45,478 bases of DNA from positions 1 to 45,478 of the forward strand of contig JAANXD010000001.1 of NCBI GenBank assembly GCA_018263435.1, written 5' to 3'. Shown piece after piece: positions 20,536-45,478 of this stretch. The position numbers and the translations under genes are program-made. The notes beneath the pieces were generated by a model. That model saw only the letters and a program-made list of their open reading frames with translations. It made no database searches and was not told the DNA's origin. The DNA is from Candidatus Scalindua arabica. GTDB lineage: Bacteria > Planctomycetota > Brocadiia > Brocadiales > Scalinduaceae. Positions within the stretch are counted from its first letter, which is position 1, and every line of letters begins with the position of its first letter.

Positions 20536-20790
20536 TTGTCTGTAGAGAACTTAGAAAAAGATATTACTGCAATTGTGGCTGAAGTAACAGAGCTGGATGA
20601 GAGTGAAATATGGGAGAAAAGAGATGCAGATTTTTTTAAGGATTTGGAGATAGATTCCTTATTGGCACTGGAGATCCTGGCTCTTATAGAGAAGAAGTTT
20701 AAGGTGCAGATACCGGAAGAAAAACTCGTAGATATTACGTCGCTGAATGCCACAATAGAAATGACAAGATCTACCCTTGAAGGAAATTAA
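20536..20790 (+). CDS. acyl carrier protein
   Basis: An 84-residue acyl carrier protein. The phosphopantetheine attachment Ser is in the motif EIDSLLALEIL, on the second helix. Surrounding sequence (FFKDLEIDSL, FKVQIPEEKLVDITSL) follows the family closely, although the usual DSLD is DSLL. The start codon is TTG, chosen because AAGGAGG lies nine bases upstream. It would carry growing acyl chains as thioesters in the cytoplasm. As first gene of the ACP-dehydratase-KS-KS-desaturase-radical SAM cluster, it is probably dedicated to that pathway rather than to housekeeping fatty acid synthesis. Confidence 0.92.
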   Translation: MSVENLEKDITAIVAEVTELDESEIWEKRDADFFKDLEIDSLLALEILALIEKKFKVQIPEEKLVDITSLNATIEMTRSTLEGN

Positions 20791-20820
20791 AAAAAATAGC
20801 TAAAATACTTCTTCATCTTG

Positions 20821-20849
20821 CCTGTCCCGTAAATCACGGAGTGGTCAGG
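20821..20849 (+). promoter_or_regulatory. hairpin between ACP and dehydratase genes
   Basis: CCTG (20821-20824) and CCGT (20827-20830) can pair with ACGG (20836-20839) and CAGG (20846-20849) around a small loop. It sits in the 90-base gap after the ACP gene. A partial terminator or mRNA-end stabiliser could let the ACP be made in excess over the enzymes. No long U-tract follows. Confidence 0.3.
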
Positions 20850-20880
20850 TTAAAACAATTAAGACGAAAGGCTGTTATAA

Positions 20881-21330
20881 ATGTTGAGCTTTGAGGAAGT
20901 GAGAGAGTTGGTTCCTCAAAAATATCCCTTCTTATTTATTGATAAAGTTGTTGAGCTTCAAAAAGAAAGTAGAATTGTTTGTTTAAAAAACATTTCTGGT
21001 AATGAGTCTTTCTTCGCAGGACACTTCCCTGATTTTGCCATAATGCCCGGGGTTTTAATTATAGAAGCTCTGGCACAAGCCTCGATCATACTTTTTAAAA
21101 AGAGTTTTGACACTGAGCAGAATAAAGATAAAGTCTTTTTGTTAGCTTCCGCCAACGTACGTTTTTCAAAACCTGTTTTTCCTGGTGATCAACTTATACT
21201 GGAAATTGATGTAGAAAAGGTCATTTCCAGTGCGGCAATAGTTAAGGGAGTGGCCAAAGTGGGAGACAAAGTCGTAACAAAAGCAACTTTGAGCTTTGGC
21301 GTTGCTGATAGAGAATCTTTAAAAAGTTGA
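20881..21330 (+). CDS. fabZ: FabZ-like 3-hydroxyacyl-ACP dehydratase
   Basis: A 149-residue hot-dog-fold dehydratase. The catalytic pair is present: His48 in FFAGHFPDF and Glu62 in MPGVLIIEALAQ. The opening VPQKYPFLFIDKVVEL and the later NVRFSKPVFPGDQLILEI match FabZ. It dehydrates 3-hydroxyacyl-ACP to trans-2-enoyl-ACP. No isomerase (FabA-type) feature stands out, so it is taken as FabZ-like. It follows the ACP gene and precedes two ketosynthase-like genes, all on one strand, so it is likely the dehydratase of this specialised pathway. Confidence 0.9.
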   Translation: MLSFEEVRELVPQKYPFLFIDKVVELQKESRIVCLKNISGNESFFAGHFPDFAIMPGVLIIEALAQASIILFKKSFDTEQNKDKVFLLASANVRFSKPVFPGDQLILEIDVEKVISSAAIVKGVAKVGDKVVTKATLSFGVADRESLKS

Positions 21331-21366
21331 TAAAACTTTAATATTCTGTAAAAGTATAAAAAACCA

Positions 21367-22587
21367 ATGGACAAAAGAATTGTAATTACTGGCCTAGGTG
21401 TAATTTCTCCTATCGGAAACAAGAAAGATGCATTTTGGAATGCGTTAATATCGGGAACGTCAGGTGTGTCTGATGTCACATCATTTGATACTTCCGTCTT
21501 TAAGGTACATAGAGGCTGTTTTGTTAAAGATTTCAATTATGATGATTATGTTAGTAATGGTTCAGGTCGGGAGATAGGTAAAGGTTCACAATTTGCCATA
21601 GCAGCAGCAAAACTCGCTATCGAAGATTCTAATGTTGGTTTAAACAGTATTGATCCTGAAAGAGCAGGTGTTTCAATTGGAACAACTGCAGGTGAAATTC
21701 AGATTTTGGAAAAAGTGAACTATGTAAGGCATGAAAAGGGAGATGATAGTGTTGATCCAAACCTGTTCCTTAAGCATCCTTGCGTTAATATGCCATCTAA
21801 CATATCTATTGAATTTGGTTTTAAGGGGCCAAGCACAATAATACCTACAGCATGTGCAGCCGGGAACTATGCAATCGGTTATGCATGTGACCTGATAAAG
21901 CTGGGAAGAACAGACATAATGCTGGCCGGTGGTTCTGACCCGTTTTCTAAAGTAGCTTTTGTTGGTTTTAGTAGACTTAATGCTATTGCTCCTGATATTT
22001 GTCAACCTTTTGATAAAAACAGAAAAGGCCTGTTAGTTGGTGAAGGTGCAGGAATGCTGGTATTAGAATCCCTGGAAGAACCACCGGCCAGGAACGCGAA
22101 TATATATGCAGAAATCCTGGGTTACGGTCTGAGCTGTGATGGTTATCACATAACAATTCCGCACCCGGATGGAAATGGTGTTACTTCGGCGATGGAAAAA
22201 GCCTTAACAAGTGCCAAAATTAAACCCGAAGATGTTCAGTATATGAGCGCACATGGTACGGGAACGGTCGCCAACGACAAGGCTGAAACAATATCTATAA
22301 AGAAGGTCTTTGGTGAACATGCAAAAAACCTGGCCATAAGCTCTATAAAATCAATGCTTGGCCACACAATGGGAGCTGCCAGCGCCATAGAGGCGATTGC
22401 ATGCGCTTTAGCTATTAAAGATGGTGTTGTGCCTCCAACTATAAACCACGAAACAAAAGACCCTGAGTGTGATCTGGATTTTGTTCCAAATGTTAAACGT
22501 GAAATGCAGGTTGATATTGCCATGAATAATGCGTATGCCTTTGGTGGCAATAACAGTAGTCTTATATTAAAAAAATTTACGGGTTAA
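21367..22587 (+). CDS. fabF: FabF-like ketosynthase, active subunit
   Basis: A 406-residue beta-ketoacyl-ACP synthase of the KAS II type. The full Cys-His-His triad is present: Cys163 in TACAAG, His296 in SAHGTGT and His333 in LGHTMGAAS. The end [14 protein letters not shown] is typical. It condenses malonyl-ACP with an acyl chain. The next gene, six bases downstream, encodes a homologous protein of almost the same length with the triad destroyed. The pair therefore looks like an active KS plus chain-length-factor heterodimer, as in type II polyketide and aryl polyene systems. That pairing is inferred. Confidence 0.93.
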
Positions 22588-22593
22588 AAATTT

Positions 22594-23829
22594 ATGAATA
22601 GTCGTCTGGTTATTACAGGAATAAGTGTCTTGTCGTCAATCGGTGTGAACAAGGATGAGTTCTGGGCCAATTTGACGAATGGTGTTTCCGGAATAAAAGA
22701 CGTTACTCTGTTTGATGTCTCTAAGTATAAAAGCAAAAAAGCGGGTGAAATATCAGATTTTGACGCAAAGGAATATTTAGGTAAAAAAGGTATTCGTCAC
22801 GTAGACAGGACATCGTTGCTGGCATCCTCGGCAGCAATGCTTGTAATGACTGATGCCGGGGTTTCGCATGAAACTTACGGTGAGGACGAACTGGGAATAG
22901 TAATCGGGTCAACGTATGGCAGTATTGACAGTATCAGTTCATTTGACCTGGAGGGATTAGAGGAGGGTCCTACTTTCGTCAATCCTATGGATTTTCCAAA
23001 TACTGTCCTGAATGCTCCAGCAAGCAGGGCCTCTATTTTCTGTAACGCGACAGGTCTGAATTCTACAATATCTACAGGAACTGCCAGTGGATTGGACGCT
23101 GTCATTTACGCTTCCGATTTCCTGAGGCTAGGCAGGGGAAAGGCTGTATTGGCCGGTGGGGTTCACGGGTTGACTGCCGACATATTCTGGGGTGCATACG
23201 GATCAGGCATATTATCAGGGAGCAGGAGTGATGGTATTGAGATTTCTGCCCCATTTGATAAAAGACGTAATGGTCTCATAATTGGTGAAGCAGCTGCGTT
23301 ACTGGTGATAGAGAGACTCGGAGATGCACTGGAAAGAAACGCAAACATCTATGCAGAAATTAAAGGCTATGGTTGTACCTTTAATCCAGACAAGGTTTCT
23401 CATGGCAATATAAATACTGAACAAGGCGTAAGATGTATTACCATGGCAATGGAAGAAGCCGGGCTTAATGCTGAAGACATTTCTTATATTTCTGCATGTG
23501 CGAATTCCAGTGTGACCGGTGATAAAATGGAGGCCGAAATTATTAAGGATTATTTCGGCGATTGTGTTGAGAAGGTTCCTGTTAGTGCCATAAAGTCAAT
23601 GACAGGAGAGTGCCTTGACGCATCAGGTTCATTACAGTGTGTTGCCGGTGTATTAGCAATTAATAATGGTGTTATTCCTCCAACAATAAACTTTCAGGAA
23701 AAAGATGAAGAATGTAATCTGGATTGCGTGCCTAATAATAGCAGGGAGTCAGATGTAAAAAACGTACTTGTAAACTCATTTTCTGATACAGGCAACATTT
23801 CATCCGTAATCATCTCAAAATATTCATAA
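22594..23829 (+). CDS. ketosynthase-like protein lacking the catalytic triad (chain-length-factor-like)
   Basis: A 411-residue homologue of the gene before it, aligned almost without gaps through the core (for example SDFLRLGRGKAVLAGG). All three catalytic residues are replaced: the Cys position is Thr163 (STGTASG), the first His is Cys302 (SACANSS) and the second His is Glu339 (TGECLDAS). The fold-defining regions remain (FDKRRNGLIIGEAAALLV, IPPTINFQEKD). This is what is expected of a non-catalytic partner that sets chain length in a KS heterodimer. It is not decay: the frame is full length and intact. Confidence 0.88.
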   Translation: MNSRLVITGISVLSSIGVNKDEFWANLTNGVSGIKDVTLFDVSKYKSKKAGEISDFDAKEYLGKKGIRHVDRTSLLASSAAMLVMTDAGVSHETYGEDELGIVIGSTYGSIDSISSFDLEGLEEGPTFVNPMDFPNTVLNAPASRASIFCNATGLNSTISTGTASGLDAVIYASDFLRLGRGKAVLAGGVHGLTADIFWGAYGSGILSGSRSDGIEISAPFDKRRNGLIIGEAAALLVIERLGDALERNANIYAEIKGYGCTFNPDKVSHGNINTEQGVRCITMAMEEAGLNAEDISYISACANSSVTGDKMEAEIIKDYFGDCVEKVPVSAIKSMTGECLDASGSLQCVAGVLAINNGVIPPTINFQEKDEECNLDCVPNNSRESDVKNVLVNSFSDTGNISSVIISKYS

Positions 23830-23836
23830 CCTCATA

Positions 23837-25282
23837 GTGTCTGCTTCCATGCGTAACTTTTCCCTTGATAAATCTGAAATAAAACCTAAGTATGACGTAA
23901 TTGTATTGGGAGCCGGAATTGCCGGTCTTATCTGCGGAACTTTTCTGGCAAAAAGTGGAAAGAAAGTGTTGATTATTGAGCAACATAGTATTCCCGGAGG
24001 CTATTGTACCTCTTTTAAGAGAAAAGGTTTTGTTTTTGATGCGGCGGTTCATCATATTGGTGGGTGTGGGAAATGGAGTGTAGTTGGCAGATGTCTTAAG
24101 GAGCTTGATATAAACACTAAATTCCTACAGCTCGATCCTATGGACAGCGTTAATTTCCCTTCATTTTCTGTAGATATACCTGCCGAGATTGACGATTATG
24201 TGGATTTGCTGAAAAAACGTTTTCCATCTGAAAGTGAAAATCTGTCTTCGTTCTTTAAAGAATTCACCAGGTTGTACAGGGCTACGTTTAGCACAGAAAG
24301 ACATAAGATGCTTGTCAAATACCAGGATCTTACTTATAAGGAAATGCTGGATAGTTTCTTTGCTGATGAACAGCTGAAGATGGTCTTGTCAGCACAGTGG
24401 GGATATATAGGTTCTCCTCCTCATGAGGTTTCGGCTATCGGTATGTGTCAGATGCTGGTAAATTATCTGAAGGATGGGGCGTATTTTCCTGTTGGCGGTA
24501 CTCAGAATTTCGCTGATGCAATTGCTCAAAAATTTATTGACTATGGCGGTCACATTATGCTATCTTCTAGAGTTGAGAAGTTGCTTACAGAGGATAATAT
24601 TACCAAAGGAGTTACAACAGAAAAAGGGGATAAGATCGCTGCAGATCTTTTTGTATCAAACATTGATCCCAGACAAACCTTTTTCAATTTAATGGAAGGA
24701 AATGCCGTTGATGACGCATACCTTCGAAAACTCGAGACTATGAAGGAAAGTGTTTCATTCTTTCTTTTATACCTTGGGCTTGATAGCCAAATTGACTTAA
24801 AAAGCCTGAAAAGAGGTTTTTACCATACATCAAATAGTACAAGTTTTTCCGATAATGATTGGTTTTATATATCCGTTCCAACAGATGTGGATTCAAGCCT
24901 GGCGCCTGATAATAAACAAATAATTTCTGTTGTTGTCTCATCAAGGGACTATTACGATGATATAGAAGACTGGGCTGTGTATAAAGATAAAATGAAAGAA
25001 TACACAATAAATTACCTGGAAGATATTGTACCCGACATTCAGGGCCATATTGAAGTGATTGACGCCGCTACGCCAAAGACTCTATATCGTTACACACTTA
25101 ACTCAAAGGGTGCAGCCTATGGCTGGGCTGTTACCGTAGACCAGACATGGTCAAATAGACTTCCACACACGACGCCATTCGAAAATCTTTTTCTGGCAGG
25201 ACACTGGACTAATCCCGGGCCGGGGATATGTGCGGTTGTATCCTCTGGTTGGAGGGTGGCCAATATGATTTTAGATAATTAG
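23837..25282 (+). CDS. CrtI/CrtISO-like FAD-dependent desaturase or isomerase
   Basis: A 481-residue flavoprotein of the phytoene desaturase/carotene isomerase/retinol saturase group. The FAD-binding motif is VIVLGAGIAGLICGTFLAKSGKKV, followed by GGYCTSFKRKGFVFDAAVHHIGG and YFPVGGTQNFADAI. The C-terminal flavin motif is FENLFLAGHWTNPGPGICAVVSSG. Members desaturate, saturate or isomerise polyene chains. It starts at GTG 23837 or ATG 23849, with no strong ribosome binding site, only 7 bases after the ketosynthase-like gene. Next to ACP and KS genes it most likely acts on an ACP-bound or free polyunsaturated chain rather than on a carotenoid. Confidence 0.88.
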   Translation: MSASMRNFSLDKSEIKPKYDVIVLGAGIAGLICGTFLAKSGKKVLIIEQHSIPGGYCTSFKRKGFVFDAAVHHIGGCGKWSVVGRCLKELDINTKFLQLDPMDSVNFPSFSVDIPAEIDDYVDLLKKRFPSESENLSSFFKEFTRLYRATFSTERHKMLVKYQDLTYKEMLDSFFADEQLKMVLSAQWGYIGSPPHEVSAIGMCQMLVNYLKDGAYFPVGGTQNFADAIAQKFIDYGGHIMLSSRVEKLLTEDNITKGVTTEKGDKIAADLFVSNIDPRQTFFNLMEGNAVDDAYLRKLETMKESVSFFLLYLGLDSQIDLKSLKRGFYHTSNSTSFSDNDWFYISVPTDVDSSLAPDNKQIISVVVSSRDYYDDIEDWAVYKDKMKEYTINYLEDIVPDIQGHIEVIDAATPKTLYRYTLNSKGAAYGWAVTVDQTWSNRLPHTTPFENLFLAGHWTNPGPGICAVVSSGWRVANMILDN

Positions 25283-25294
25283 GAGGATAAAAGA

Positions 25295-26761
25295 ATGAGA
25301 AAAATGATGCTTATCAATCCGCATCCCCCTGGGAGACATGGTGAGGAGAGTATATCTGTCATAGTTCAAATGCCTTTAAACCTGGCATACATCGCAGCCC
25401 TTACACCGGGTGACTGGGAGTTTGACGTAATCGATGAAAATCTTGAACTGGCCCTGGATGATAACGGAGATATTACATTCGAGCCCGTGGATATGGTTTG
25501 CATTACTTCTGTTACCTATCAAGTGTCAAGAGCATACAAGATAGCTGAGGTCTGTAGGAAAAAAGGCATGACAGTGGTCATGGGAGGAATACACGCTTCA
25601 GTAGTGCCAGAAGAAGCTTCAAAATACGTGGATGCAATTTTTATCGGAGAGGCCGAAACATTGTGGCCACAAGTCATTAAAGATTTTGAAAAAGGCGAAC
25701 TCAAAAAGAAGTATGAAGGTGGGCTGCCAGGCCTGTCAGAGATGAAGCATGTATTTCCGAACAGGGAACTCTTGAAGAAGAAATATGATTACAAGTTTTC
25801 ATCTATTGTTACAACAAAAGGTTGTCCAAATTACTGTGATTTCTGTAGTGTACCAACCTTTCAGGGAAAAAAGTACAGAGAAAGACCGTTTGAAGATGTC
25901 CTGGATGAGATGGAATCAACTGATTATAAGGGGCTCATGTTTGCAGAAGATAATTTCTATGGACATAGTAAGAACTCTGCTAACAGGGCAAAAGACCTCT
26001 TTCGTGGTATGATAGATAGGGGCATTAAAAAGGACTGGCTTGGATTTACTGCGCTCAATATATCAAAGGATGCAGAGGCACTTGATCTCATGGCAAAGAG
26101 TGGAAATTTCGGATTTCTCTGTGGCATAGAATCAACAAATGAAGCGGTTCTGGAAAAGATGAATAAAACGACTAATTTAAGGATTGGTGCTGATAATTAT
26201 TATGACAGCGTTCAAAAGATTCACGATCATGGCCTTGTTGTCTGGGGATCCATAGTTTTGGGAGCAGATGGTGATGACAAAGATTCATTCAAAAGAATGA
26301 CAGATTTTGTTCTGCAAAACAATATTGACGTTCTTACCTTTGGAATTAATTGTCCGTTTCCAAAGACTGCACTTTATGCCAGGCTTGATTCTGAAAAGAG
26401 GATTTTTAGAAAGAATTATCCTGAAGACTGGAAATATTACGACACGGCTCATGTAGTTCACAGACTCGTAGATATGAACCTTGAGGAGTTTATAGAAGGC
26501 ATGCAATATATGTATGATCATCTTTATGCCGGAGACAATCTGAGATTGCGATTCAGGAAATCACTTCAGACTATCGGAAGTACAACTCATGGCAAACGTA
26601 ACGCCATGTTTGGTTTCAGGGTCGGCTCTGACTGGATTCAGGTATTTGAACAGGTGCTGGAGAATCTGCGTAAACTTTACGATTCGGGAGATTATTACCA
26701 GGACTGGTACAAGAGCAGTGCCGTTACCGTACAGTCAGAAAAAGGAGTTGCAGTTAGTTGA
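25295..26761 (+). CDS. B12-binding-domain radical SAM enzyme
   Basis: A 488-residue enzyme. The N-terminal ~150 residues form a Rossmann-type cobalamin-binding-like domain (MLINPHPPG, LNLAYIAAL, DMVCITSVTYQ, VVMGGIHASVVPEEA, FIGEAE). The classical DxHxxG motif is not seen, as in many members. The radical SAM motif CPNYCDFC (Cx3Cx2C) follows at about residues 179-186, with AEDNFYG and GIESTNE after it. AGGAGG lies upstream of the ATG. Such enzymes do C-C bond formation, methylation and ring chemistry on unreactive carbons. As last gene of the cluster it is the best candidate for the unusual carbon chemistry. Confidence 0.88.
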   Translation: MRKMMLINPHPPGRHGEESISVIVQMPLNLAYIAALTPGDWEFDVIDENLELALDDNGDITFEPVDMVCITSVTYQVSRAYKIAEVCRKKGMTVVMGGIHASVVPEEASKYVDAIFIGEAETLWPQVIKDFEKGELKKKYEGGLPGLSEMKHVFPNRELLKKKYDYKFSSIVTTKGCPNYCDFCSVPTFQGKKYRERPFEDVLDEMESTDYKGLMFAEDNFYGHSKNSANRAKDLFRGMIDRGIKKDWLGFTALNISKDAEALDLMAKSGNFGFLCGIESTNEAVLEKMNKTTNLRIGADNYYDSVQKIHDHGLVVWGSIVLGADGDDKDSFKRMTDFVLQNNIDVLTFGINCPFPKTALYARLDSEKRIFRKNYPEDWKYYDTAHVVHRLVDMNLEEFIEGMQYMYDHLYAGDNLRLRFRKSLQTIGSTTHGKRNAMFGFRVGSDWIQVFEQVLENLRKLYDSGDYYQDWYKSSAVTVQSEKGVAVS

Positions 26762-41101: not shown

Positions 41102-41839
41102 TTACAACGCCAGTCCTCCATCAACAGACAGTACCTGGCCGGTAATATATTTTGCATCGTCCGAAAGCATAAACATTGCGGTTTTTGCGACATCATCAGT
41201 CGTACCGAATCGCTTTAGCGAAGTCATATCTATCATCTTTGTTTTGTATTCTTCCGGAAGCTCAGAGGTCATATCCGTCTCTATGAATCCACATGCAATG
41301 GCATTAACATTAATATTTGCCTTACCGACCTCTTTCGCAAGGGCCTTTGTAAAGCCAATCATTCCAGCCTTGGAAGCTGAGTAATTGGACTGTCCTGCCA
41401 CACCGGCAATACCGCTGACAGAAGTTATGTTGAGAATGTTTCCACGTTTCTGTTTGACCATAGTCATGATTACGGCCTTGGAGAAATTATACACACTCTT
41501 TAGATTTATATTGAGCACATCATCCCAGTCGTCCTCTTTCATTAAGGCGAGAAGTTTATCCCTCGTGATTCCCGCATTGTTAACCAGAATATCTATCTGT
41601 CCAAATTCATCCTTAACCTCTTTTGCCATCTCTTTTGCACCCTCAAAATTCGATACATCTGCCTTTTTTGCCATGGCCTTGACCCCGAGTGTCTCTATCT
41701 CCTTTACGAGTTCGTTTGCCAGGTCATCACTCTTGCTATAGTTGAAGGCAACATTACATCCGTGTTTTGCCAGCTCAAGTGCTATCGCTCTACCTATACC
41801 TCTGGTACCACCTGTTACTATTGCTGTCTTGTTACTCAT
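41102..41839 (-). CDS. fabG: 3-oxoacyl-ACP reductase FabG
   Basis: A 245-residue short-chain dehydrogenase: NADP-binding VTGGTRGIGRAIA, the NNAG motif, and the catalytic Ser-Tyr-Lys in NITSVSGIAGVAGQSNYSASKAGM. ACGFIETDMTSELPEEYK and the end TGQVLSVDGGL are typical for FabG. It reduces 3-oxoacyl-ACP with NADPH. GGAGGTAAG lies seven bases before the ATG. It lies 34 bases after the crotonase gene on the same strand, the last step visible in the KS-FadH-crotonase-FabG operon. Confidence 0.93.
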   Translation of the reverse strand: MSNKTAIVTGGTRGIGRAIALELAKHGCNVAFNYSKSDDLANELVKEIETLGVKAMAKKADVSNFEGAKEMAKEVKDEFGQIDILVNNAGITRDKLLALMKEDDWDDVLNINLKSVYNFSKAVIMTMVKQKRGNILNITSVSGIAGVAGQSNYSASKAGMIGFTKALAKEVGKANINVNAIACGFIETDMTSELPEEYKTKMIDMTSLKRFGTTDDVAKTAMFMLSDDAKYITGQVLSVDGGLAL

Positions 41840-41873
41840 AGTCTTACCTCCGGAAATTTTTATTATGTTTCTT

Positions 41874-42707
41874 TTAAGATTTTACTTTGTGAGTTTCTCG
41901 GTGAGCTTCTTTCTCAACCAGCTTTAAACGCATCATTTCAGCAAAGAGCTCTACTTCGTATTCAATACCTTTCCTTATGTCATGGTCAACTGCGTAGTTT
42001 ATACATTTTTTCATCGTTTGTATAGCAGTATCATTATTTTCTGCCAGCTTACGTGCAAATTCTATAGACTCTTTAAGTACCTCTCTTGCAGGTGCCAGTG
42101 AGTTAACCAGTCCCCATGCAAGGGCGGTCTTTGCACGGATCATCTTTGCCGAAAACAGCATCTCCTTGGCCCTGGCTGCACCTATGACCTTTGGCAGCCT
42201 TATGGTTCCGCCGAGGCCGGGGATTATACTCAACTCAGGTTTTGCTTCCGGCAAACTGAAGAATGCTATTTCAGATGTTATGCGAATATCACACAATAAT
42301 GCAAGCTCAAGTCCTGCACCAATTGTAACACCATTAAGGGCTGCAATAAGCGGCTTTCTGCAGTTCTCAATCTCTATATACATTTCATGAGCCCTTACGA
42401 ACCTGTCGTAGTTCTTTTCTGCTACCAACCCTGAAATCCATGAACCAAATAATTCGTCCTGGTCTGCACCATCACAGAAAACGCCTCTGATACTGCTTGT
42501 TATTATTATGGACGTTATTCTCTCATCCTTCTCGTAAGAATCTATCTTGTCATATATAGCATCCAGCAGCCAGGAACCTATAGAATTCCTCGGACGTTTC
42601 TTCATCTTGATAATACCTGCGTATTTATTCTCCTGAAGTTTTACCTCCTCACATTCCAAATGCTGGTAACCAGAATCATCACCCATATTCATCCGTATGT
42701 CTTTCAT
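41874..42707 (-). CDS. enoyl-CoA hydratase/isomerase (crotonase) family protein
   Basis: A 277-residue crotonase-fold protein. The oxyanion-hole segment SSIRGVFCDGADQDEL and ALNGVTIGAGLELALLCDIRI hold the first catalytic acid, and SLPEAKPELSIIPGLGGTIRLPKVIG the second, so hydratase activity is possible. It has an N-terminal extension of about 25 residues. It starts four bases after the FadH-like gene stop and precedes fabG. It acts on CoA or ACP enoyl esters; in this operon a lipid-modifying role is inferred. Confidence 0.88.
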   Translation of the reverse strand: MKDIRMNMGDDSGYQHLECEEVKLQENKYAGIIKMKKRPRNSIGSWLLDAIYDKIDSYEKDERITSIIITSSIRGVFCDGADQDELFGSWISGLVAEKNYDRFVRAHEMYIEIENCRKPLIAALNGVTIGAGLELALLCDIRITSEIAFFSLPEAKPELSIIPGLGGTIRLPKVIGAARAKEMLFSAKMIRAKTALAWGLVNSLAPAREVLKESIEFARKLAENNDTAIQTMKKCINYAVDHDIRKGIEYEVELFAEMMRLKLVEKEAHRETHKVKS

Positions 42708-42711
42708 AATC

Positions 42712-44727
42712 TTAAATCCTCAGACTTGCTTCAAATCCTTCATGTATTGCTTCGAGTGCAGTCCTGACCTCTACACAATCACCTATTTTATATAATTCAT
42801 CAATCTTGCCATTTAATTTTCTGGTAAGGTTCTGGTTGGGTTTGTATCCTGCCGCAATTATAACAGTATCAGCAAGAAGATTAATATCTTTATTATCTTT
42901 TTCAAATGTTATAGAGGCTTTACCTGATTTGTTAATGTGTTTGATGTCTTTAACATTTATACCAGTTATACTGTTGATACCGGCATCTTTAACCTGCTTT
43001 AGGACGACCCACCTGGTTGAGATGCCGAATCTTCCACCGATTTTGTTTTTCATTTCCAGGATAGTGATATTTCGTTTTCCCCTTGAAGTAAGTTTTACAG
43101 CTTCATCCCCATTTATAACTCTGTTCTTTAGAAGAAAGCAGGCAACGTCAGGTTCCATTGCCCCCATCTTTGCAGTGTGAAGGGCAATCTCGCAGCCTAT
43201 AGTGCCTCCGCCTATGATTACTACATCTTTGCCGACCTGTACCCTGTTGTCAAACACGTCTTCGGCCACAACAACGTTCTTTTCCTTAACACCAGAAATC
43301 TTAGGGATAATAGGACTCCCTCCAACAGCAGCAACTACAACATCCGGTTTTAATTCTTTTATAGTTTTCACATCTACATTTTTGCAGAATTGTATTTTTA
43401 CATTCAATTTTTTAATTTGATTCTCCAGGAATTTAATGACATTTTCTATCTCTTCCCTTCCCGGAGGAATGTAAGCGTATCTCAATTGTCCGCCAAGTAC
43501 ATCTGTTTTTTCAAATAAATGCACGTCATGTCCTCTTAAAGCAGCAACTCTTGCTGCCTCCATACCTGCCGGCCCGCCGCCAATAACCATTACCTTTTTC
43601 TTCTTTTTAGCCTTCCTGATCTTTAATTCACTTTCTCTGCCGGCCCTGACATTATATAGACAACTTACAGATTTGAAGTTTAACAGAGAGTCGAAGCATC
43701 CCTGATTACAGGCAATACATCTTCTGATATCGTCGTATTGTTTCCTCTTATACTTTTTTGGTAATTCCGGGTCTGCTATTAATGGTCTTCCGATTGAAAC
43801 AATGTCTGACTGATTATTGTCTATAACTTCTTCTGCCAGAGCCAGATCATTTATCCGTACCGATCCGATTACCGGTACTTTTACGTTATCCTTAATCTTT
43901 TCTGATAAAAAGATATAAGACATTCTCGGGATGGCCATAATCATTATGGGTGTACGGCTCTCATGCCAGCCGGGAGAAACATTAAACGCATCCACACCTG
44001 CCTTTTCCAGTTCCTTTGCTATCTCAACACTTTCATCAATCTTGAGGCCTTCATCTACAAAATCATCACCTGACATACGGAAGATTATGGGATAGCCCTT
44101 TCCCACCTTTTTTCTTATGGTTATGACCATCTCTTTTGCAAAATTTATCCTGTTCTTAAGGCTCCCTCCATATCTGTCCTTTCTCTTATTTGTTGCTTTC
44201 GAAAGAAACTGATTGATAAGATAGCCCATGCCGCCATGTATCTCTACTGCATCAAACCCTGCCTTCTTTACCCTTGTTGTGGCAGAGACATAGCTATCTA
44301 TAACCTTCTTTATTTCAGGTATGGTTAGTGCGTGCGGTTTTTGTTTTATATTAGCATGGGCCAGGCTTGATGGCGATACGGGATGCGTTTTCGAGAAAAA
44401 CGAAGAAGCACTTCTGCCTCCATGAAGAATTTGAGCGGCCACCTTGACATCATATTTATGGATTGTATCTGTTAATTTTCTTAATCCCGGTATAAACTCA
44501 TCTTTGTCCAGACCAACTATACTCTTCCACACCTTGCCGGTCATTTCCGGATAACAACCACCTACTACAATTAATCCCACTCCACCGCGAGCCCTTTCTA
44601 CATAAAAATCAATAAAACGCTTGTTAATAGAACCGTCCGACGTAAATCCAAGATCCATTGCGGACATGGCCAGTCTGTTCTTAATTTCTAATTTACCTAT
44701 TTTTATTGGTTCAAATAATTTACTCAT
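42712..44727 (-). CDS. 2,4-dienoyl-CoA reductase-like flavoenzyme (FadH/OYE family)
   Basis: A 671-residue enzyme. The N-terminal TIM barrel of the old-yellow-enzyme type (PIKIGKLEIKNRLAMSAMDL, EIHGGMGYLINQFLS, DRYGGSLKNR) binds FMN. The Fe-S site is CIACNQGC plus a further Cys (SVSCL). The C-terminal half has two dinucleotide folds (MVIGGGPAGMEAA and VVIIGGGTIGCE) for FAD and NAD(P). Such enzymes reduce conjugated dienoyl-CoA. The ATG overlaps the ketosynthase-like gene's stop (ATGAGTAA) by eight bases, so the two are coupled. A conjugated-ene reductase fits with an unusual lipid pathway. Confidence 0.9.
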   Translation of the reverse strand: MSKLFEPIKIGKLEIKNRLAMSAMDLGFTSDGSINKRFIDFYVERARGGVGLIVVGGCYPEMTGKVWKSIVGLDKDEFIPGLRKLTDTIHKYDVKVAAQILHGGRSASSFFSKTHPVSPSSLAHANIKQKPHALTIPEIKKVIDSYVSATTRVKKAGFDAVEIHGGMGYLINQFLSKATNKRKDRYGGSLKNRINFAKEMVITIRKKVGKGYPIIFRMSGDDFVDEGLKIDESVEIAKELEKAGVDAFNVSPGWHESRTPIMIMAIPRMSYIFLSEKIKDNVKVPVIGSVRINDLALAEEVIDNNQSDIVSIGRPLIADPELPKKYKRKQYDDIRRCIACNQGCFDSLLNFKSVSCLYNVRAGRESELKIRKAKKKKKVMVIGGGPAGMEAARVAALRGHDVHLFEKTDVLGGQLRYAYIPPGREEIENVIKFLENQIKKLNVKIQFCKNVDVKTIKELKPDVVVAAVGGSPIIPKISGVKEKNVVVAEDVFDNRVQVGKDVVIIGGGTIGCEIALHTAKMGAMEPDVACFLLKNRVINGDEAVKLTSRGKRNITILEMKNKIGGRFGISTRWVVLKQVKDAGINSITGINVKDIKHINKSGKASITFEKDNKDINLLADTVIIAAGYKPNQNLTRKLNGKIDELYKIGDCVEVRTALEAIHEGFEASLRI

Positions 44728-45478
44728 GTTTTTTAACAATCAGGCAGGAGTTATTTCCAGACAAATCAAACGAATTTATTAGGACTGTGTTTACATCTTT
44801 TTCGAGTTTCTCATTCACAACATTCAGATTACATTCAGGATCTTTTTCTTCGCAGTTAATTGTGGGTGGTATTAAACTATCGTTTATGGAAAGTAACGCG
44901 GACGCTGTCTGAACCGCTCCCGATGCTCCATAACTTTCCCCCAAAGCCGATTTAACGGTATGGACGGGAATGTTTTTACTCTTCTCTCCAAATAATTCCT
45001 GGATGGCTTTTGCCTCTATGAGGTCTGGTAATTTGCCTGAATTTCCATTTGCGTTAATCAGGTCTATATCTTCCGGAGACAAACCGGCATCTTCGATACA
45101 TTTTTTCATAGCGTTCCCAGCTTTCTCAACTCTTTTTCCAGTATCACTGTTCCTGCCACCTGCAAAGATACTTCCATATCCGGAAACTTCACCATAGATC
45201 CTTGCCCCGCGGCTTACAGCGTAATCATGATCTTCCAATACGAATACATAACTGCCTTCACTCATGATAAAACCATCTCTTCTTTTGTCGAAAGGCATGC
45301 TGATCTCATTGCCGGTACCACTGGCTCCGGCCAGCATCTTCTGCAGATAAAATATCATGTATAGATCCAGTGAGATCTGCTCGACTCCACCCGCTATGAT
45401 TACGTTTGTCTTTCCATTCTGTATAAGTTTAAAGGCATTACCAACAGCATCGGTACTTGACGTAAAGCCTGAAGAAAT
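44720..45478 (-). CDS. ketosynthase-like protein lacking catalytic residues (partial)
   Basis: At least 252 residues; the frame is open to the right edge, beyond the internal Met at 45358. It is the C-terminal two thirds of a FabF-type fold, with INANGNSGKLPDLIEAKAIQELFGEKSKNIPVHTVKSALGESYGASG. The triad positions are lost: the Cys site is Phe (SSGFTSS), the first His is Asn (NANGNSG) and the second His is Glu (LGESYG). FDKRRDGFIMSEGSYVFVLED is kept. It is the second KS-like protein in the window that cannot condense, and it is coupled to the FadH-like gene. Confidence 0.87.
   Translation of the reverse strand: MSSGFTSSTDAVGNAFKLIQNGKTNVIIAGGVEQISLDLYMIFYLQKMLAGASGTGNEISMPFDKRRDGFIMSEGSYVFVLEDHDYAVSRGARIYGEVSGYGSIFAGGRNSDTGKRVEKAGNAMKKCIEDAGLSPEDIDLINANGNSGKLPDLIEAKAIQELFGEKSKNIPVHTVKSALGESYGASGAVQTASALLSINDSLIPPTINCEEKDPECNLNVVNEKLEKDVNTVLINSFDLSGNNSCLIVKKHE

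Follow-up and report, generated by a model that had tools for sequence, protein, structure and literature searches.

At the right-hand end of a 45,478-nucleotide stretch of Candidatus Scalindua arabica DNA (order Brocadiales; below, the window), which covers positions 1–45478 of a 50,630-bp contig, lies an operon encoding a protein that resembles β-ketoacyl synthases (KS) without their Cys-His-His active site. Read with the remainder of the contig, this operon (operon 2) probably specifies a heterodimeric condensing enzyme together with β-carbon processing enzymes of its own; the acyl chain that they handle would be an unusual one, probably that of a ladderane. That operon 2 and a sister in the same window (operon 1) are ladderane candidates with deviant active sites has been known since 2009; new here, as far as the published texts and tables show, are the order-wide fixation of the altered residues, the apparent duplication of the KS genes as pairs and an adjoining FadH–crotonase–FabG block.

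Operon 2 and its KS-like protein

The full order of operon 2, on the minus strand, is acpS, a B12-binding radical SAM gene, an intact KS gene (KS2), the KS-like gene (CLF2), and genes for a FadH-like protein, a crotonase and FabG, with the upstream part on the contig beyond the window edge (labels with L denote loci, those with G genomes):

41102–41839, minus strand: FabG-type 3-oxoacyl-acyl carrier protein (ACP) reductase (TIGR01830, 323.2 bits, cut-off 297.75; Ser-Tyr-Lys)
41874–42707, minus strand: crotonase-fold enoyl-CoA hydratase/isomerase (PF00378, E 4.1e-46; both catalytic Glu)
42712–44739 (open reading frame; ATG 44727–44725), minus strand: FadH-like flavoprotein with FMN barrel, FAD/NAD domain and four Fe-S Cys (PF00724 and PF07992; best solved relative 1ps9, E. 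coli 2,4-dienoyl-CoA reductase)
44720–45478 in the window, to contig position 45952, minus strand: KS-like gene of chain-length-factor (CLF) type, 410 aa, kuste2805 ortholog (Pfam KS domains; Phe163/Asn298/Lys328/Glu333)
L023:4721–5953, minus strand, across the window edge: the KS-like gene of the preceding line in full
L023:5954–7162, minus strand, contig beyond the window edge: intact KS (Cys-His-His)
L023:7300–8775, minus strand, contig beyond the window edge: B12-binding radical SAM protein
L023:8777–9172, minus strand, contig beyond the window edge: AcpS

No base pair separates the KS2 stop from the KS-like start, and the KS-like stop (TAA, 44722–44720) overlaps the FadH-like ATG (44727–44725) by 8 bp. 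Because the spacing stays short, with the crotonase gene 4 bp after the FadH-like gene and the FabG gene 34 bp after the crotonase gene, the genes look like a single operon. A promoter scan gave 25 matches against 24.5 expected by chance.

The original prediction, made from the window alone, had described the window's four genes, with the KS-like stop overlapping the FadH-like start, and had reported a partial KS that keeps the fold motifs but has Phe, Asn and Glu where Cys, His and His are expected. Gene positions (on the minus strand), overlap and residues were all confirmed: in the alignment Cys163 is replaced by Phe, His298 by Asn and His333 by Glu, with Lys328 kept, and both the N and C ketoacyl-synt domains of Pfam score above cut-off. 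The match to the FabF profile TIGR03150 reaches 329 bits against a cut-off of 493.75. The word partial holds for the window, at whose edge the reading frame is open, but not for the gene, which continues on the contig to a complete 410 aa; the truncation is an artefact of the window ending before a single N (L023:5480), and this N sits a few codons ahead of the Phe codon, not at an active-site residue.

The three replacements are fixed across the order, with one exception, and are under purifying selection, an observation that is new here. All full-length Brocadiales orthologs in the alignment carry Phe163, Lys328 and Glu333, and all except L111, which has Gly298, carry Asn298; dN/dS between Scalindua orthologs is 0.11–0.14, compared with 0.08–0.09 for the accompanying KS. 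The KS-like family of operon 1 (CLF1), ~35–41% identical to that of operon 2, is more variable at the same three sites (Val, Thr or Glu; Cys or Asn; Glu or Asp). The operon 2 protein was detected in 56 of 62 Brocadiales at 53–100% identity, and not in the remaining six (G005, G039, G046, G054, G055 and G061). Among 13 genomes from the rest of the class, the best matches lay at about E 1e-61 to 1e-70 or were missing altogether. Sampled members of the phylum from outside Brocadiales gave matches of no more than 37% identity, and the three of these that were aligned have Cys-His-His. Foldseek with an AlphaFold model (mean predicted local distance difference test score 87.9) retrieved mostly FabF structures, among which the ishigamide KS ranked 25th and the AntDE complex 46th, a result that adds a predicted fold, not a function.

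Two KS/KS-like pairs and their known relatives

The second inactive KS-like protein noted in the window, at 22594–23829, likewise adjoins an intact KS, in operon 1:

20536–20790, plus strand: ACP, kuste3603-type (solved relatives 7qv0_D, 7auf and 9s5i_E)
20881–21330, plus strand: FabZ-type dehydratase, kuste3604-type (synteny and Table 2 of PMC4790861)
21367–22587, plus strand: intact KS (KS1; Cys-His-His), kuste3605-type (72% identity to the 9s5h_B stretch)
22594–23829, plus strand: KS-like partner (CLF1; Thr163/Cys298/Glu333), kuste3606-type (65% identity to the 9s5h_C stretch)
23837–25282, plus strand: phytoene-desaturase-like flavoprotein, kuste3607-type (PF01593; TIGR02734 below cut-off)
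25295–26761, plus strand: B12-binding radical SAM protein, kuste3608-type (~52% identity to the operon 2 copy)

In a 100-sequence tree, KS1 and KS2 formed a clade with an Omnitrophica KS (SH-aLRT support 98), as did CLF1 and CLF2 with a KS-like protein from Omnitrophica (100); thinning the tree gave the same two clades (KS 100, CLF 99). Since the two KSs branch in parallel with their KS-like partners, the KS/KS-like pair appears to have been duplicated as a unit, and because the radical SAM copies share 50–57% identity between the operons, the duplicated core probably comprised radical SAM, KS and KS-like genes. The Omnitrophica proteins may fall inside or outside the anammox duplication. In the Omnitrophica genome (L052:6239–9797) a KS-like gene (Phe/Ser/Asp), FabG, ACP and an intact KS stand in a row, the closest non-anammox relative of the pairs among the sequences compared. 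The two operons are often neighbours across genomes: one KS-like gene lies ~21 kb from the other in this genome, and the distance is 20 kb in G009, 15 kb in G013 and 7.5 kb in G025.

Both operons correspond to known Kuenenia gene groups. According to Javidpour et al. 2016 (PMC4790861), kuste2802–2805 encode AcpS, a radical SAM protein, FabF and a non-canonical FabB, and kuste3603–3608 an ACP, FabZ, FabF, a non-canonical FabF, a phytoene desaturase and a radical SAM protein; the first four genes of operon 2 match the former in order, and window positions 20536–26761 are of the latter type. In the text and tables of Rattray et al. 2009 (PMC2649909), Kuste2805 has Phe163, Asn298, Lys328 and Glu333, identical to the operon 2 protein, and Kuste3606 has Val163, Asn298 and Glu333; these authors held that such deviant proteins cannot be normal FabF and suggested recruitment of units from outside fatty-acid synthesis. 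The original prediction had missed that the locus is an anammox ladderane candidate whose deviant KS genes were published in that paper.

Its proposal that heterodimeric KS systems have been elaborated here is very likely right: it is well supported, though largely foreshadowed by published work. Besides the parallel clades, in which the tree of the two KS-like proteins that it had called for places both together, PDB entries 9s5h and 9s5i contain an operon 1-type KS (chain B) and KS-like protein (chain C) in equal numbers, with an ACP in 9s5i, and finding the paralogous pair together argues for heterodimers. Chain C of 9s5h carries the Kuste3606 residues; because it is 93% identical to the G030 protein and 82% to that of G026, which we take to be Kuenenia, its source would be a Brocadiaceae-type bacterium, not clearly Kuenenia. 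A search of the papers available found none on 9s5h and none joining ladderanes with a dienoyl reductase. An intact KS with a dead KS-fold partner beside it is also the arrangement of the KS-CLF heterodimers of type II polyketide synthases (actinorhodin, 1tqy; ishigamide, 6kxd; AntDE, 6smo; aryl polyene ApeO–ApeC), whose KS subunits are solved relatives, and in operon 2 the intact Cys-His-His KS gene likewise adjoins a gene for a KS-fold protein without the catalytic Cys. At the Cys, His and His sites the operon 2 protein has Phe, Asn and Glu, as against Gln, Asp and Arg in the two CLFs from Streptomyces that were aligned, and it lacks the aromatic-CLF residue signature, which marks an aromatic subgroup rather than all CLFs.

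At E 1e-3 the FabF family has only five members in this genome (KS1, CLF1, KS2, CLF2 and one FabF), so the additional KS genes that Kuenenia has in its large cluster (kuste3346–3349) appear dispensable in Scalindua, provided that Scalindua makes ladderanes, as we presume. Other genomes hold more: G003, G010, G019 and G021, all Brocadiales, have 23–38 KS matches each, with large polyketide-type complements, compared with five in most Scalindua. G053 has three KS-family genes (L123:4612–11319) that may be the counterparts of the kuste3346–3349 group; one encodes Gly163/Ser298/Tyr333 and another Cys163/His298/Gln333. In other Planctomycetota (L048:3575 and L050:6113), a KS-like gene with Glu163/His298/Asn333 lies upstream of an intact KS beside FabZ-like genes, and its residues match those of R. 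baltica NP_866153 in the 2009 table (PMC2649909).

The FadH–crotonase–FabG block

The FadH-like protein has features expected of FadH, namely an FMN barrel followed by a FAD/NAD domain, 4Fe-4S cysteines and catalytic Tyr166 and His252. The Tyr (in GYLIN), the His (in GWHES) and the four Fe-S Cys are present in every ortholog aligned, and a paralog in the same genome (L002) is without the catalytic Tyr and His. It shares its full-length domain order and these residues with E. coli FadH (1ps9; 380 bits, E 2.4e-112) but, unlike that enzyme, sits in an operon of fatty-acid-synthesis type, and it scores almost equally (367 bits) to 6qkg, which we take to be 2-naphthoyl-CoA reductase; its best NCBIfam matches are below their cut-offs. 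Action on conjugated enes, to which the original prediction had pointed, or on 2,4-dienoyl thioesters is plausible. The catalytic Glu pair of the crotonase (ELALL/SLPE) is kept in all sequences aligned, and FabG keeps its Ser-Tyr-Lys. At five Scalindua loci (L026, L027, L028, L041 and L042) the operon crotonase is 61–64% identical to that of the window, compared with 68–73% for Brocadiaceae, and the flanking FadH and FabG are 84–92% identical, suggesting replacement or fast evolution of the crotonase there.

An early look at the loci had suggested that the FadH-like gene is an add-on missing from Brocadiaceae. This was rejected: an ortholog (~55–94% identity) occurs in nearly all Brocadiales, a few others holding only contig-end fragments, and a clear copy is absent in G005, G047 and G048. 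It is absent from the 13 class genomes outside the order, in which the best match is 35%. G047 and G048 are Brocadiaceae that retain the KS-like gene, and the missing FadH ortholog could reflect assembly gaps or real loss.

Of 54 genomes that have both genes, 39 carry the FadH-like gene no more than ~5 kb from the KS-like one; these 39 come from all five families of the order (f1, f2 and f3 in full, one of the two f4 genomes and 12 f5 genomes). In the four cases checked in which FadH is displaced, the crotonase is displaced too (L115, L116, L117 and, also with FabG, L118); at L030 a second crotonase remained near the KS-like gene. Kuenenia (G026) has its FadH–crotonase block at 4.256 Mb, among prenyl synthase, glycosyltransferase and transposase genes and in no listed cluster, and its KS-like gene at 3.941 Mb. 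This separation of ~315 kb probably explains why the FadH-like gene is absent from earlier ladderane lists. The Kuenenia-based 2009 list (PMC2649909) is, in its text, without the FadH–crotonase–FabG module, the pairwise duplication and the order-wide fixation; the text of that paper contains neither 'dienoyl' nor 'enoyl-CoA hydratase' nor the locus tag 2806, and a figure legend has an 'OX oxidoreductase' that is not traceable to a gene. The gene table of the 2016 paper (PMC4790861) likewise lists no FadH-like or crotonase genes.

A possible ladderane assembly line and its alternatives

We propose that KS2 carries out Claisen condensation and that the Phe/Asn/Glu subunit is a dedicated dead partner which, like the CLF of type II polyketide synthases, would shape the acyl pocket and the carrier-protein surface; that pair 2 forms a heterodimer is suggested by analogy with the solved complex of pair 1 homologues. 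FabG would then perform the ketoreduction of the same cycle, the crotonase dehydration or isomerisation, and the FadH-like flavoprotein enoyl or 2,4-dienoyl reduction, with AcpS supplying holo-ACP, probably the ACP of operon 1. A ladderane acyl chain would be the likeliest product, because both operons seem to have arisen by core duplication and are conserved throughout anammox bacteria. This link draws on the genes' co-occurrence with anammox bacteria as a lineage and on what was proposed in 2009 (PMC2649909); the hydrazine synthase alpha gene was found in 29 of 39 relatives, including this genome, and in none of 14 controls. A division of labour is conceivable in which operon 1, which has no reductase gene, builds an unsaturated part and the operon 2 enzymes then elongate it, with reduction.

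Several points weigh against this proposal. Crotonases and FadH-type enzymes usually act on CoA, not ACP, thioesters. Beyond the window edge an intact KS does lie directly upstream, as anticipated, followed by the radical SAM and AcpS genes, but operon 2 read through to acpS contains no ACP and no FabZ-type dehydratase. The solved pair is of operon 1 type, and for pair 2, of Phe163 type, neither a solved structure nor a complex or activity is known. The CLF clade grouped with actinobacterial CLFs in a quick tree (support 92, long branches) but not in a second one, and an approximately unbiased test of a common origin (P 0.376) spoke neither for nor against it. At least one well-assembled genome (G047) shows no FadH ortholog, and the KS-like and FadH-like genes are so nearly universal in anammox bacteria that a link to ladderanes is inseparable from one to other anammox traits. 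Finally, ladderanes were not detected after heterologous expression of Kuenenia candidate genes, although many of the proteins were insoluble (PMC4790861).

Both pairs could instead make another anammox-specific lipid, such as a polyunsaturated hydrocarbon or other membrane component. Rattray et al. (PMC2649909) tied similar Desulfotalea clusters to C31 polyunsaturated hydrocarbons, with no ladderanes found there, and the Omnitrophica genome has its related KS/KS-like/FabG/ACP set; near-universality in the anammox lineage is, however, as expected for its defining membrane lipid, and we consider this alternative somewhat unlikely. It is unlikely, too, that the FadH–crotonase–FabG block is an independent module for CoA-linked degradation or salvage whose place beside the KS pair is accidental. 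All three types have β-oxidation or CoA-linked homologues, and the FadH–crotonase block stands alone in Kuenenia (L116) and some other Brocadiaceae (L115 and L117), but the linkage recurs in all five families, the KS-like stop overlaps the FadH-like start in the window, and the block contains neither thiolase nor acyl-CoA dehydrogenase. Very unlikely is a stand-alone acyltransferase or recruiter that brings a pre-made ladderane or other unit into fatty-acid synthesis, as proposed in 2009 from the same residue changes (PMC2649909): although some divergent KS-fold proteins do transfer acyl groups (for example NCBIfam AmcF, the cispentacin biosynthesis acyltransferase subunit), Phe163 is no nucleophile, the protein is strictly paired one-to-one with an intact KS in parallel trees, and the homologous pair shares one crystal entry (9s5h). 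A pseudogene or sequencing error at the active site, to which the nearby N might have pointed, is refuted by the same residues in orthologs from independent genomes and by their low dN/dS.

Beyond the heterodimer with its β-carbon processing enzymes, we tentatively suggest that the two duplicated, lineage-specific KS/dead-KS heterodimers may constitute a two-stage assembly line for ladderane acyl chains, one stage without and one with a reductive set (FabG, crotonase and FadH-like), the block being a missing part of the pathway that was omitted earlier because in Kuenenia it lies apart from the KS genes. Published expression drew on candidates of the 2009 list; if the FadH–crotonase–FabG block, the addition worth following, does belong to the pathway, then the published reconstruction was missing a part. 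Altogether, two defined KS/KS-like pairs are now at hand to express with their partners and assay, and a small order-wide core of two radical SAM–KS–KS-like sets can be separated from the larger, patchy list of candidates.

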